This document shows, in pieces, positions 10,186 through 23,958 of a stretch of DNA of 39,098 bases. The position numbers and the translations under genes were made by a program. Position 1 is the first letter of the stretch. Each line of letters starts with the position of its first letter. This stretch comes from an uncultured Bacteroidia bacterium (GTDB lineage Bacteria; Bacteroidota; Bacteroidia; Bacteroidales; Prolixibacteraceae). The notes under the pieces are model-generated. The model saw nothing but the letters and a program-made list of their open reading frames with translations, searched no databases and was not told the origin of the DNA. Where the stretch lies: contig CAIYPA010000283.1 of NCBI GenBank assembly GCA_903927965.1, positions 1 to 39,098 of the forward strand, in the 5' to 3' direction.

Positions 10186-13062
10186 ATGAATCTCCAAGAA
10201 TTTCCAATCGTTGGCATTGGTGCCTCGGCTGGTGGTCTTGAGGCACTTGAGCAGTTTTTTTACAATATGCCTTTGGACAATGGAATGGCTTTCGTGGTGA
10301 TACAACACCTTGATCCAAATCATGTTGGCATTATGCCAGAATTGTTGCAACGAATTACGACCATGAAAGTCTATCAGGCCAGCGACAATCTGAAAGTGAA
10401 ACCAAATTGTGTTTATGTCATACCACCCAACAAGAATCTTTCGATCCTGCGTGGTGTCCTGCAGTTGTTCGATCAGGTCCTGACACACGGCCTTCGTTTA
10501 CCCATTGATATTTTCTTCCGTTCTCTTGCTGACGACTCACTGGATAAAAGCATCGCGATTATCCTTTCGGGAATGGGATCGGACGGCAGCCTTGGATTAA
10601 AGGCCATCAAAGAAAAGAATGGCATTGTGCTGGTTCAGTCTCCTGAGTCGGCAAAGTTTGACGGAATGCCCCGAAGTGCCATCGATGCTGTAATTGCTGA
10701 TGTTATTGCCCCGGCTCAGGAATTGCCCACAAAACTCCTTGATTTCCTGAAGTTCATTCCGATTGTTAATACTGAAGCGGAATTTGATGATAAAAGCAAA
10801 AGCAACCTTGATAAAATTATCATCCTGATCCGGGAACAAACGGGTCACGACTTTTCACTTTACAGGAAAAACACCTTGTTTCGTCGTATCGAACGGCGAA
10901 AGGGCATACACCAGATCGACAAGCTGAGTACCTATGTACGATTCTGTCAGGAAAACCCAAAAGAAGTTGAGATCCTTTTTAAAGAGATCTTGATTGGTGT
11001 GACCAGCTTTTTCAGGGATCCCGAGGTATGGGAAAAACTAAGGGAACAAATCATTCCTGAAATGATCGGTAAAATGCCCAACAGAACCCTTCTACATGCA
11101 TGGGTTGTGGCTTGCTCAACAGGTGAAGAGGCTTATTCATTGGCCATTGCATTTAAAGAGGCTCTTGTTGAAACGAAAAATAAAGCAAACCTTAGCTTGC
11201 AGATTTTCGCTACCGATCTCGACCAGGATGCCATTGAAAAAGCCCGTAAGGGGCTTTATTCATTAAACATTGTAAACGATGTTTCCCCTGAACGGCTTGG
11301 CCGTTTTTTTACCCTTGAATCTGATGGATACCGGGTTGTGGCATCCATTCGCGAGATGGTGGTATTTGCACCACACAATGTGATCAAGGATCCGCCATTT
11401 ACCAAACTCAATATTCTGACCTGCCGGAATATGCTGATCTATCTGGAGCCCGAATTACAGAAAAAGCTGATCGCATTGTTTAATTACAGCCTTAATCCTG
11501 GTGGGGTAATGGTGTTGGGAACAGCCGAATCTTTTAACAAGCAAAGCGTTGGTTTTAAAGAGATTGACGGTAAATTTAAAATTTATTCCCGTTTATCAGC
11601 ACCCTCGTTTTCTGAACTCAATGATTTTCCAAGCTCTTTTGTTCACAGGAAAGCCAGGAAAACAGACAGTTCTCCTTTACCCAAGGTTGTTGAAAATATA
11701 CAAACCATTGCTGATCAGGTAATCATTCAACGGTTTTCTCCTGCAAGTGTTTTGGTAAACGAAAAAGGCGATATCATTTACATGACCGGCCGCATCGGAA
11801 AATACCTGGAACCGGTTGCGGGCAAAGCAACCTATAATATTTATGTGATGGCGCGGGAGGGTTTACGCGACGAACTTCCTGGTGCCATTCGTAAAGCAGC
11901 ACAAAATTCCGACGAAGTTTTTTTGCGAAACCTAAAGGTTGGAACCAATGGGGGTACCCTTATTGTTGATGTTACACTTCAATGTATGGATACCCAGAAT
12001 TCGATTAAAGGACTGGTCATGGTCCTGTTTACCGACGTTACAGCAAAAGTCGAACAGGATGAAAATCTAAAGTCAGGGAAAAGGAATTCAAGCGTACTGG
12101 TAAAGGAGATGGAGGGTAAACTGAGGAGAAGCCAGGAAAACATGCAACACCTTCTGGAAGAAATGCAGACCTCGCAGGAAGAACTTAAATCAACAAATGA
12201 AGAGTTGCAATCGACTAATGAGGAATTGCAGAGTACCAATGAAGAAATCACCACTTCAAAAGAAGAGATGCAGAGCCTTAACGAAGAACTACAAGCCGTT
12301 AATGTTGAGTTACAAAGCAAAGTAGTCGATTTTGTACATGCTAACGACGACATGAAGAACTTGCTCAACAGTACGGGAGTTGCAACGCTTTTTCTAGATA
12401 AAGAATTGAAAATCAGGAAATATACGGATCAGGTAGTCAATATAATCAAGCTTCGTAATGGGGATATTGGCAGATATTTTACCGATCTTGCCTCAGATCT
12501 GAAATATCCCGAAATAGAAAATCATGCACAACAGGTTCTTGATACCCTCATATCTAAAGAAACTCCAATTACAACAGAAGATGGACGATGGTTTAATGTG
12601 CGGATTATGCCATATCGTACCCAGGATGATTTTATTGATGGACTGGTCATCACGTTCATAGACATCACTGCGGCTAAAAAGGCTGAGGCTGCATTGACCA
12701 TTTCGGAAAGTAAATACAGGGGCCTTTTTGAATCGGCGAAAGATGGAATCCTTGTCCTGGATGCTGAAACAGGGATGATTAAGGACGTAAACCCATTCTT
12801 GATCGGATTATTGGGCTATTCAAAAGAACAATTCATTGAAAAAACAATCTGGCAAATCGGTTTTTTTAAAGATATAGTCGCCAACAAAGATAAATTTCTT
12901 GAATTGCAAAAAAAAGAGATTGTCCGGTATAAAAACCTCCCGCTCGAAACTGCTGATGGACGGACAATTAATGTGGAATTTGTCAGCAATGTTTATATAA
13001 TTGCCCATATTAAGGTCATCCAATGCTTCATCCGTGAAACATTGGCAAGTGAAGAAAAATAG
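10186..13062 (+). CDS. CheB methylesterase - CheR methyltransferase - PAS fusion protein
   Basis: 958 residues from the ATG at 10186. Order: CheB methylesterase (about 5-190) with the catalytic triad visible as S14 (GIGASAGG), H41 (VIQHLDPNH) and D133 (SGMGSDGS), but no receiver domain; CheR N- and C-terminal domains (about 200-475) with STGEEAYSLAIA as the SAM-binding loop and ILTCRNMLIYL; a PAS-like stretch; a coiled coil of repeated STNEELQ heptads (about 645-715); two further PAS domains. Stand-alone CheB-CheR-PAS proteins are usually signalling modules rather than classical chemotaxis parts. The protein ends in ETLASEEK just after the last PAS fold, shorter than relatives that continue into a kinase. 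The hybrid kinase gene begins 13 bases later, so the two likely act together. Confidence 0.9.
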   Translation: MNLQEFPIVGIGASAGGLEALEQFFYNMPLDNGMAFVVIQHLDPNHVGIMPELLQRITTMKVYQASDNLKVKPNCVYVIPPNKNLSILRGVLQLFDQVLTHGLRLPIDIFFRSLADDSLDKSIAIILSGMGSDGSLGLKAIKEKNGIVLVQSPESAKFDGMPRSAIDAVIADVIAPAQELPTKLLDFLKFIPIVNTEAEFDDKSKSNLDKIIILIREQTGHDFSLYRKNTLFRRIERRKGIHQIDKLSTYVRFCQENPKEVEILFKEILIGVTSFFRDPEVWEKLREQIIPEMIGKMPNRTLLHAWVVACSTGEEAYSLAIAFKEALVETKNKANLSLQIFATDLDQDAIEKARKGLYSLNIVNDVSPERLGRFFTLESDGYRVVASIREMVVFAPHNVIKDPPFTKLNILTCRNMLIYLEPELQKKLIALFNYSLNPGGVMVLGTAESFNKQSVGFKEIDGKFKIYSRLSAPSFSELNDFPSSFVHRKARKTDSSPLPKVVENIQTIADQVIIQRFSPASVLVNEKGDIIYMTGRIGKYLEPVAGKATYNIYVMAREGLRDELPGAIRKAAQNSDEVFLRNLKVGTNGGTLIVDVTLQCMDTQNSIKGLVMVLFTDVTAKVEQDENLKSGKRNSSVLVKEMEGKLRRSQENMQHLLEEMQTSQEELKSTNEELQSTNEELQSTNEEITTSKEEMQSLNEELQAVNVELQSKVVDFVHANDDMKNLLNSTGVATLFLDKELKIRKYTDQVVNIIKLRNGDIGRYFTDLASDLKYPEIENHAQQVLDTLISKETPITTEDGRWFNVRIMPYRTQDDFIDGLVITFIDITAAKKAEAALTISESKYRGLFESAKDGILVLDAETGMIKDVNPFLIGLLGYSKEQFIEKTIWQIGFFKDIVANKDKFLELQKKEIVRYKNLPLETADGRTINVEFVSNVYIIAHIKVIQCFIRETLASEEK

Positions 13063-13075
13063 TAAATCTTACACA

Positions 13076-15181
13076 ATGGAAAAGGAAAACACAGCAGATG
13101 GGGCAAACCTTCGCAAGCAAGCCGAGGAATTGTTAAGCATCAGATCAACCAAAACAATAGCGGAACTATCAGAAGCAGAGGTATATAAACTCCTTCATGA
13201 ACCTCAGGTACATCAGATTGAATTGGAGCTTCAGAACAAGGAACTTATCCTGGCAAAAGAAGAAGTTGAAATTGTTTCTGAAAAATACATCGATCTGTAC
13301 GATTTTTCGCCATCCGGTTATTTTACACTCTCCAGACAAGGTGAAATACTTCAGTTAAACCTTACAGGTGCAAAAATATTGGGTAAAGAGCGGTCTCAAT
13401 TGATCAGGCAACGATTTCAACATTTCGTATCCAAAGATTCACAACCAGTCTTCAGTCATTTCCTGAGTTCGGCATTTGGTGATTGTACAAATGGTGGTTG
13501 TGAATTGAGCTTATCGACAATGGTAGGCGGGCCCAGAATTGCCCACCTAGACGGCATCGTTATGGAAAATGGAGAAAATTGCTACATTACTGCAACAGAT
13601 ATTACACAGCGCAAACAGGCTGAGTTGGAGCTTCAGTTGAGCCACGAGTTTAATCAATCATTGCTGAAAACCATCCCTTTTGGAATGGACATTGTGGATG
13701 AAAATGGATCCATCCTATTTTTGAGCGAAAGCTTTAAGCAACATATCGGAGAAACAGGTATTGGTAAAAAATGCTGGGAAATGTACCGTGACGATCAGAA
13801 ACAGTGCCTGGGATGTCCTTTGCATTGGGGAATTCAGGTCGGCGAGACTAAAAAATATGAAACCAGCGATGTGATGGGAGGAAGGGTATTTGAAATCAGC
13901 CACACTGGGATGATTTTTAATGACAAAAAGGCTCTATTGGAAATCTTTATTGACATCACGCAACGAAAAGAGGCAGAGTTGGAATTGATTTTTGCCAAAG
14001 AACAAGCACAGGAAAGCGATCGGTTGAAATCGGCCTTTCTGGCCAATATGAGCCACGAAATCCGTACACCCATGAATGGCATCCTGGGCTTTGCCGAACT
14101 TCTTAAAGAACCAAAGTTGACCAATGAAGAACAAATGGAATACATCGGTATCATAGAGAAAAGCGGGGTCCGCATGTTGAATATCATTAACGATATTATT
14201 TCCATTTCTAAAATCGAATCGGGTTTAATGAACGTTTTCCTTTCGGAAACCAACATCAACGAGCAGATCGAATACCTATTTACGTTCTTTAAACCTGAAG
14301 TCTATAAAAAGGGGATGCAGCTTACATTCAGGAATGGATTGGAGAAGAAAGCTGCCATAATAACTACTGACCGTGAAAAGGTTTATGCCATCCTCACCAA
14401 CCTTATCAAAAATGCGATCAAATATAGCGATACCGGTTCAATCGAATTTGGTTACGATCTTGTAGAGGCGCAATTCATTGCGCCTCTACAAGGCATTGCG
14501 ACACAGCATTGCAATACATTGCAATTCTTCGTAAAAGATACAGGCATTGGAATTCCCAAAGAAAGGCAAAAAGCCATTTTTGAACGGTTTATTCAGGCTG
14601 ATATTGGAGACAAAAGGGCTTATGAGGGAGCTGGCCTGGGTTTGGCCATTACCAAGGCGTATGTCGAAATGATGGGTGGGAAAATTTGGGTCGAAAGCGA
14701 AGCCGGCAAAGGGTCGGTATTTTATTTCACCTTACCCTACAAAGGTGAGGATCATGAAAACAACATTATCCACAATGCAATTCCTGAACTTGCCCCTGAA
14801 TATCAAATAAAACTCATCAAAATATTAATAGCTGAAGATGATGAAGTTTCTGCTGAATTTCTGAAACTGATCCTGGGTAAATATGCCAAAGATATTATAT
14901 TGGTCCGGAACGGATTTGATGCCATTGAAGCCTGCCACAAAAATACCGATATTGACCTGGTGTTGATGGATATAAAAATGCCAGTAATGGGCGGGTACGA
15001 AGGGATTCACGAAATCCGTAAATTTAACAAGGAGGTCATCATCATCGTGCAAACAGCCTACGCGCTTACAAGCGAAAGAAGAAAGGCAAAATCTGAAGGG
15101 TGCAATGATTACATTACAAAACCAATTGACCGCAATGCTTTGATGGCGTTGCTCCAAAAATATTTCAAAAAAAACTATTGA
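13076..15181 (+). CDS. PAS-containing hybrid sensor histidine kinase / response regulator
   Basis: 701 residues from ATG 13076, the first good start after the upstream stop (an in-frame ATG at 13001 overlaps the previous gene). Order: a coiled N-terminus, PAS (about 60-180), a second PAS with a Cys-rich loop (QKQCLGCPLHW), HisKA with phospho-acceptor H327 in MSHEIRTPMNG, HATPase with N-box TNLIKNAIKYS, DTGIGIP and GAGLGLAI, and a C-terminal receiver with phospho-acceptor D632 in VLMDIKMP. No transmembrane segment, so a cytoplasmic sensor. Oddity: about 19 residues (VEAQFIAPLQGIATQHCNT) between the N-box and DTGIGIP are encoded by a palindromic DNA repeat inserted in frame. A terminator follows. 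Confidence 0.92.
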   Translation: MEKENTADGANLRKQAEELLSIRSTKTIAELSEAEVYKLLHEPQVHQIELELQNKELILAKEEVEIVSEKYIDLYDFSPSGYFTLSRQGEILQLNLTGAKILGKERSQLIRQRFQHFVSKDSQPVFSHFLSSAFGDCTNGGCELSLSTMVGGPRIAHLDGIVMENGENCYITATDITQRKQAELELQLSHEFNQSLLKTIPFGMDIVDENGSILFLSESFKQHIGETGIGKKCWEMYRDDQKQCLGCPLHWGIQVGETKKYETSDVMGGRVFEISHTGMIFNDKKALLEIFIDITQRKEAELELIFAKEQAQESDRLKSAFLANMSHEIRTPMNGILGFAELLKEPKLTNEEQMEYIGIIEKSGVRMLNIINDIISISKIESGLMNVFLSETNINEQIEYLFTFFKPEVYKKGMQLTFRNGLEKKAAIITTDREKVYAILTNLIKNAIKYSDTGSIEFGYDLVEAQFIAPLQGIATQHCNTLQFFVKDTGIGIPKERQKAIFERFIQADIGDKRAYEGAGLGLAITKAYVEMMGGKIWVESEAGKGSVFYFTLPYKGEDHENNIIHNAIPELAPEYQIKLIKILIAEDDEVSAEFLKLILGKYAKDIILVRNGFDAIEACHKNTDIDLVLMDIKMPVMGGYEGIHEIRKFNKEVIIIVQTAYALTSERRKAKSEGCNDYITKPIDRNALMALLQKYFKKNY
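14459..14492. repeat. Palindromic repeat inserted inside the histidine kinase gene
   Basis: Two perfect 16-base arms (left CTTGTAGAGGCGCAAT, right its exact reverse complement) separated by two bases. The following 28 bases carry repeated GCATTGC/GCAATAC-like words, so the inserted unit probably spans about 14457-14521. Its length in coding terms (about 57-63 bp) preserves the frame. From memory, this GTAGAGGCGCAAT word belongs to a dispersed intergenic palindrome family found in several phyla. Confidence 0.8.
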
Positions 15182-23920: not shown

Positions 23921-23958
23921 TAAATGGCCTTAATCGGATTAAAGATTAAGGCCATTTA
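23921..23958. terminator. Bidirectional terminator between convergent genes
   Basis: Perfect 15-base arms TAAATGGCCTTAATC (23921-23935) and GATTAAGGCCATTTA (23944-23958) with an 8-base loop. It lies between the plus-strand C1 peptidase and the end of the minus-strand glycan cluster and could serve both. Confidence 0.85.

Follow-up and report, generated by a model that had tools for sequence, protein, structure and literature searches.

An in-frame REP-like palindrome in the ATPase domain of a Bacteroidota histidine kinase and the recurrence of such palindromes at the same hairpin of other kinases

Short palindromes dispersed in bacterial genomes include the CGTC and the GTAG-tagged repetitive extragenic palindromes (REPs), of which the latter have alternative complementary bases in their stems; some copies lie inside open reading frames (Di Nocera et al. 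2013, PMC3733652). In the parts of that paper drawn on here, loops or linkers were suggested to tolerate the intragenic copies, which were found in varied proteins and, when in genes of one functional category, at different sites except in recB of two Xanthomonas species, and their insertion into varied unrelated proteins was argued to oppose a functional constraint (PMC3733652). Here we describe a palindrome that a hybrid histidine kinase carries in frame within its ATPase domain, in a stretch of 39,098 nucleotides from an uncultured Bacteroidia bacterium of the Prolixibacteraceae (assembly GCA_903927965.1, contig CAIYPA010000283.1, positions 1 to 39,098 of the forward strand), and the whole of this stretch is called the window. 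We consider it likely that this is a mobile palindrome of REP-like kind which has entered the ATPase domain in frame, at a beta-hairpin tip, an element which is dispersed, recurrent at that place and tolerated there, and which was probably moved by a tyrosine transposase. Loci and genomes are given by L and G numbers where they have to be told apart, and G000 is the genome of the window.

The palindrome was found by inverted-repeat search; it is 34 bp in length, has no strand of its own, and its two arms of 16 nt (14459-14474 and 14477-14492) are 100% complementary around a centre of 2 nt. The part at 14462-14489 (also strandless), GTAGAGGCGCAATTCATTGCGCCTCTAC, is the core of a dispersed family. 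On the plus strand the segment 14462..14491 codes for VEAQFIAPLQ in the phase GTA GAG, which is the phase of VETxxxxSLQ elsewhere in kinases; GIATQHCNT follows, and the window peptide across the insert, between NLIKNAIKY and DTGIGIP, is VEAQFIAPLQGIATQHCNT. After the palindrome comes a CATTGC-rich stretch (14493..14526, plus strand) with the word at 14494, 14507 and 14517, and a further CATTGC starts at 14476 inside the palindrome itself. The palindrome and all these words are within one open frame (13001..15181, plus strand). An earlier note on this DNA had described perfect arms in coding sequence, GCATTGC-like words after them and a peptide beginning VEAQFIAPLQG, and the searches and the translation bear this out. 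Ten inverted repeats of at least 14 nt with arms at most 60 nt apart were listed in the window and perfect arms were present in two, this palindrome being one. The other perfect one is at 23921-23958, with 15-nt arms TAAATGGCCTTAATC and an 8-nt spacer. The segment 14440-14540 folds as RNA at -39 kcal/mol, and its shuffled versions average -19.4 (z -7.2; 0 of 200 shuffles as good).

The open frame is that of a hybrid histidine kinase, as seen from the open reading frame list and from Pfam matches to PAS, HisKA, HATPase_c and Response_reg, and its start was taken by us as the likely ATG at 13076. The site lies between the N box and DTGIGIP with the motifs intact on both sides, as had been said before, and Pfam places HisKA, HATPase_c and the receiver around the insert. 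On the plus strand, the His codon of SHEIRTP (14054..14056), which we take to be the phospho-acceptor, is intact and invariant in 18 aligned kinases (H21), and so are NLIKNAIKY (14399..14425; sequence and alignments) and DTGIGIP (14537..14557; sequence and the 18-kinase alignment) intact, which we presume to be the N box and the G1 box. The invariant columns of the His, N and G1 motifs flanking the insert are all held in that alignment. Having the His, N and G boxes together with the kinase fold of HisKA and HATPase_c proteins, the kinase with its insert would still work, as we infer from these motifs.

The AlphaFold2 model of 266 residues (window positions 13994-14791) had a mean pLDDT of 80.8, and its best fold matches were HK853-type kinases (HK853 complexes). 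The insert lies between modelled strands 149-158 and 174-182 and is for that reason placed at a beta-hairpin tip, which would be the tip of the hairpin whose two strands are the one following the N box and the one leading into the G1 box. At residues 160-170 the pLDDT is below 50, as expected of a flexible stretch in such a prediction.

In the two kinases most similar in protein sequence to that of the window (57% and 56% identity), GYLKKGATLEFYVK and GYLKKGETLEFYVK stand where the window has GYDLVEAQFIAPLQGIATQHCNTLQFFVK. The alignment with orthologues that the earlier note had proposed thus shows the segment to be absent from the closest kinases, which have an empty hairpin of 17 residues, and the loop is not a property of all orthologues. 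For a wider view, 90 kinase loci were taken from a protein search with the window kinase (30 directly and 60 chosen down the match list, with a few near-copies among them, such as L077/L078 and L280/L282), and the hairpin, running from the SIEFGY strand up to the one that precedes DTGIGIP, was read by alignment in all 90, a simpler parser having read 61 loops of the 90 (60 of them different). The commonest hairpin has 17 residues (41/90). An inverted-repeat score of at least 10 was reached in 17 of the 90 hairpins, the window included, against 4 of 1845 equal-sized segments elsewhere in the same aligned genes. When arranged by length, all 17 fall in the class of 20 residues or more (44 hairpins), and the class of 17-18 residues (45 hairpins) has none.

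The palindromes in the hairpin belong to at least three families. The first is of the GTAGAGACG type; the second, GTAGAGACAA and the like, ends in TTGTCTCTAC (L240, L244, L256, L065, L070, L289); the third, TTGCAGCAA.GGAGCATGCTCC.TTGCTGCAA, is present in three kinases of G085 (L066, L255, L284). A weaker case, GTTCGTCAGG..CCTGTCGAAC, was seen in L063 with a score of 8. Some of the inserts are also expanded: in the stretch compared, L069 and L213 hardly differ except by a 45-nt tandem expansion of a half-element, in which VETQH is repeated (x4), and L088 carries VETHGH x4 ahead of an intact palindrome. After entry, half-elements may therefore expand by tandem duplication, as VETHGH x4 and VETQH x4 suggest, and then decay as in the window, where by analogy with these kinases the stretch 14493-14526 is possibly a decayed partial duplication of the right half of the palindrome.

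The dispersed family is recognized by fixed outer arms, GTAGAG(A/G)C...G(T/C)CTCTAC, around a variable core which mostly stays palindromic. A search of the 101-nt segment in its own genome gave the window locus and its own palindrome on the other strand and nothing else, and degenerate arm patterns were therefore needed. With GTAGRGRCG...CGYCYCTAC there are 11 matches in G000 (7.57 Mb, 584 contigs) and none with the reversed control, so the repeat has the further copies that the earlier note had asked for, outside genes as well as inside them, and as a correction to that note the family is modest in this genome. The only other copy of G000 in the stricter TTGTAGAG..CTCTACAA form is C138. G084 has 21 copies, and the stricter pattern is present in 58 of 140 genomes of the same bacterial family with no control match. 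A one-arm search allowing up to 2 mismatches was noisy in G000 (14 matches against 5 for the reversed control). That the palindrome is a product of chance or an assembly artefact of a metagenome bin is hardly credible: G000 is an assembly of 584 contigs and the single-arm matches with mismatches are in part due to chance, and against this the same arms recur across many independent assemblies and in records whose titles name a strain, i.e. Fischerella muscicola PCC 73103 and Pollutibacter soli JS81, while the reversed patterns gave 0 in the family-genome search, in G000 and in a second scan and were near 0 elsewhere (1 forward and 1 reverse match in one of three further genomes).

The inner 12 bases were compared in 125 copies, where the outer arms are constant by the search pattern and the outermost inner bases are partly set by it. 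There were 56 different inner sequences; the inner part was perfectly self-complementary in 86 of the copies, with 20 different perfect sequences, and had at most one mismatched pair in 120. Since the core varies and stays paired, the family is kept as a hairpin. The subtype GGATAATTATCC makes up 12 of the 19 copies in G156 and 8 of the 12 in G157 (manual count), and it also sits in kinases of both genomes, i.e. the kinase copies match the resident subtype. The element can be read in two of the three phases, open on both strands, and the third is closed by its own TAG.

The distribution of copies with respect to genes was studied in a sample of 131 copies from 18 genomes (89 + 42), taken without regard to gene context. 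It is a part of the copies of each genome (e.g. 11 of 14 in G022, 5 of 8 in G093, 1 of 5 in G001 and 4 of 6 in G021), and ten of the 18 genomes were sampled with the stricter pattern. Copies were called in-gene by reading frames of about 150 residues or more. Copies close to either end of a frame were left out of this class as probable 5' extensions or tails, such as L099, L107, L108, L111, L128, L133, L160, L161, L166, L294, L300, L305, L307, L309, L311, L312, L322 and L331. By frame reading and Pfam domain scans, 20 of the 131 copies are inside genes, and histidine kinases hold 9 of these, in every case in the stretch that separates the N box from the G1 box. Eight are hairpin copies (the window, L088 on G000 contig 47, L094 on G000 contig 391, L100, L106, L118, L151 and L293), and L143, in a kinase of another class, has its copy in the loop just before the first strand of the hairpin. 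Transposase genes hold four (L110, L137, L172 and L324, RAYT-like). L299 and L320 are UDP-glucose/GDP-mannose dehydrogenases of two genomes with different cores at a corresponding C-terminal place after ...SYHDPYIP; L093 (G000:C360) is a gene with an FGE-sulfatase domain and an in-frame palindrome read as VETHGRASLP; the other single cases are PP2C (L113), MR_MLE (L127), ACT (L132) and L124, which has no Pfam match. In 11 genomes there are 804 HATPase_c matches, 41-111 per genome; the 17-residue hairpins make up about 0.07% of the DNA of these genomes, and 8 of 107 copies lie there against 0.075 expected (the calculation itself was run with 9 copies, L143 included, the hairpin alone having 8).

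Insertions were then placed on a quickly built tree of 104 kinases with the loop left out, in which some rows are long-branched. The inserted and empty states require at least 16 changes, a count from which 20 rows with long loops of ambiguous origin were excluded, and the commonest insert type, P0, alone requires 19 changes, of which at least seven are forced by the starred branches. An old vertical insertion, by which one ancestral kinase gained the palindrome, its paralogues inherited it and gene conversion keeps the arms paired, would agree with the greater clustering of inserts than of shuffled labels and with sisters that share a palindrome, such as the pair L183/L211 with the same palindrome in both. 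We regard it as very unlikely, given the number of changes needed and of those forced for P0, the differences of phase and palindrome family between close kinases, and the occupation of unrelated kinase classes and of four phyla.

The phyla come from a scan of 84,980 species genomes for the palindrome with G1-box-like codons 11-71 nt downstream of it, and because a G1-like box is demanded the scan cannot measure enrichment. It gave 57 matches, of which 34 are kinases by inspection. The 23 matches set aside are 21 of Symploca and one of Westiellopsis (short non-kinase frames), and L212 (contig edge, closed phase); L185, in which the N box is missing because the fetched slice begins there, was kept. 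Overlap of the scan with the sample was recognized by equal letters (e.g. L179 = L151, L208 = L106, L221 = L100, L228 = L293). By record titles, mostly of metagenome bins so that single placements may be wrong, the kinases belong to four phyla with many in Bacteroidota; four are cyanobacterial (Coleofasciculus L178 and L192, Fischerella L184, Leptolyngbyaceae L224), and others are of Desulfatirhabdium (L206, L220) and a planctomycete (L210). Cyanobacteria are also said to have small dispersed repeats (Elhai et al. 2008), reportedly very small, mobile and in some cases in genes. In Symploca the palindrome is part of a larger repeat, in short frames ending YSGYIDTGFGI or similar (the 21 matches, e.g. 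L181, L186 and L189, from two genomes).

In 25 of the 34 scan kinases the palindrome is enclosed by the two hairpin strands, which were assigned by eye with the help of the model and the pattern. Copies in the loop before the first strand are those of L185, L187 (three), L188, L196, L198, L216 and L224, and these loci together with L143 are kinases with an NAFYA-like or NAIDA-like N box. L216, from Pollutibacter soli, has two kinase domains, one with the palindrome; the other has the loop TERSRNNSTGNN near the same place, which may come from another repeat. An active targeting, in which the element prefers the DNA of the hairpin codons by sequence or single-stranded structure and is not filtered by selection, is distinctly unlikely. 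Similar junctions (GY-x-x, VET..SL, LQF/LEF) in a number of Bacteroidota kinases speak for it, as do the flanks, which are generally T-rich on the outer side of GTAG (154 of the 250 first positions are T); unlike palindromes occupy the same hairpin (TTGCAGCAA... and, more weakly, GTTCGTCAGG...), and cyanobacterial and other kinases with a different hairpin sequence are hit, as is the neighbouring loop. Because other families share the site, the cyanobacterial hairpins differ and the neighbouring loop is hit too, tolerance is favoured over targeting.

The reading phase in the scan kinases is GTA-GAG (VETxxxxSLQ) in 26 of the 34 and the shifted one (xRDxxxxVST) in eight. These phases bear on the explanation that the loop is functional, its coded peptide or its mRNA hairpin having been recruited to tune the activity or expression of the kinase. 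We hold this to be unlikely, but the strong recurrence at one spot, the strong RNA hairpin and the arrays of coded peptide give it some weight. Against it, the peptide differs by phase and family and the empty 17-residue form is found in 41 of the 90 sampled hairpins, so that no particular sequence is required, and the loop was predicted with low confidence, as for a flexible stretch.

A candidate for the mobilizing enzyme is suggested by the four transposase genes of the sample. In L110, L137, L172 and L324 the palindrome, or an array grown from it, lies in frame between HxH and the C-terminal part, with long degenerate peptide repeats at the palindrome site in L324 and L137. All four match NF047646 below its cut-off and two of them pass Pfam Y1_Tnp; the assignment of L172 and L324 depends on the sub-cut-off NF047646 match and on a PNHxH motif. 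A palindrome within RAYT-like genes is thus a lead on the mobilizer.

The preferred explanation, a REP-like mobile palindrome tolerated at the hairpin tip, can then be put as follows. A RAYT-type tyrosine transposase would move the element in the form of a single-stranded hairpin, as we infer from its foot GTAG, from a hairpin that is conserved while the core varies, and from the RAYT-like genes holding the palindrome. Copies landing elsewhere in genes would mostly be purged, whereas the flexible hairpin tip would tolerate extra residues, and 41-111 such domains are offered per genome. Concentration in kinase hairpins would arise by selection, because two phases are open, the tip is tolerant and many domains are available.

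A number of points weigh against this explanation. No palindrome scoring 10 is present in 27 of the 44 longer hairpins, which are decayed or of other origin. The insert labels are also clustered on the tree, where a P0 count as low was obtained in 0 of 500 shuffles, which points to some inheritance, and 39 of the 101 inner branches of this quick tree are weakly supported. In 9 of the 34 scan kinases and in one of the nine unselected kinase copies the palindrome is not at the hairpin tip but in the preceding loop, which links the N-box helix to the first strand. The DNA-share test counts copies from related genomes as independent, and the presumed function of insert-bearing kinases is judged from motif integrity. 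In only one of 38 Y1 transposase loci (8 of the 11 matches in G000 and 30 from ten other genomes) was the palindrome found within about 1.5 kb, a proportion which does not establish the classical REP-RAYT pairing; this locus, L347, has GTAGAGGC and GCCTCTAC 12 nt apart, the GTAGAGAC...GTCTCTAC form was seen in 0 of the 38, and the inverted repeats around four Y1 genes include none of this palindrome family. None of the four split RAYT-like genes came up in the Y1 search, which is therefore biased against them. Finally, the mobility of the element is deduced from its distribution and was not observed.

The claim of the earlier note, that a dispersed palindrome can move into genes and be tolerated as a protein loop, is supported and essentially right: the dispersal and the toleration agree with the empty homologues, the copies in and out of genes and the scatter on the tree, and "can move" is drawn from these distributions. 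The repeated hits on the same hairpin, the several palindrome families and the several phyla go beyond it. A still wider reading, which we put forward tentatively and with the odds somewhat against it, is that the hairpin tip, along with the preceding loop, serves tiny mobile palindromes of many bacterial phyla as a general place of docking and diversification, where they are read as loops in one or the other of two phases, expand as peptide arrays and decay. One surface loop of signalling kinases would then be rewritten all the time by mobile DNA, and the RAYT genes would keep a copy of their substrate as an in-frame loop.

The kinases affected belong to one of the large bacterial protein superfamilies. 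If the explanation is true, the inserts map where the catalytic domain of kinases naturally tolerates insertions, and they form a series, from fresh through expanded to decayed, of mobile DNA becoming protein. Alleles with and without an insert are also numerous, which allows one to ask whether such loops alter signalling.

Compared with the described systems, the element shares with the GTAG REPs, in the part of the literature considered, a short dispersed palindrome starting with GTAG, a variable paired stem and the presence of some copies in open reading frames. Like the 20-40 bp dispersed palindromes of that class it measures 28-34 bp and is scattered in its genomes, with 11 copies in G000 and 21 in G084, and the REP-rich genomes of the literature hold more copies than either. 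In GTAG REPs as defined in that literature, the GTAG tag is terminal and left unpaired, whereas the window copy pairs it with the CTAC of its opposite end; the pairing was judged on the window copy, the other copies having been searched with both ends fixed. Because GTAG is paired and not free, the element is not filed as a GTAG REP, though it works like one. The likening to the Rickettsia palindromic elements (RPE) made in the earlier note is fair as an analogy, as both are in-frame palindromic DNA within protein genes (PMC3733652), and here the motifs of the host protein are intact. The RPE are in other hosts, and in the portion of the source used RPE-4 and RPE-6 are filed with the CGTC repeats and RPE-1 is called longer (PMC3733652). 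In REPtrons, as presented in that source, REPs flank or overlap the gene ends (PMC3733652), whereas here the palindrome is inside RAYT-like coding sequence, in four NF047646-matching genes of related genomes. In the main text of PMC3733652 "histidine kinase" is absent and the sole mention of Bacteroidetes concerns CGTC repeats. Searches with the palindrome letters gave only unrelated papers among the matches listed, and the recurrent kinase-loop site is in no report among the open-access literature matches listed, subscription papers being outside that coverage. In-frame REPs are already known and the recurrent kinase loop is the new part: earlier in-frame palindromes were described as scattered over varied proteins, whereas here one structurally defined loop is hit repeatedly.

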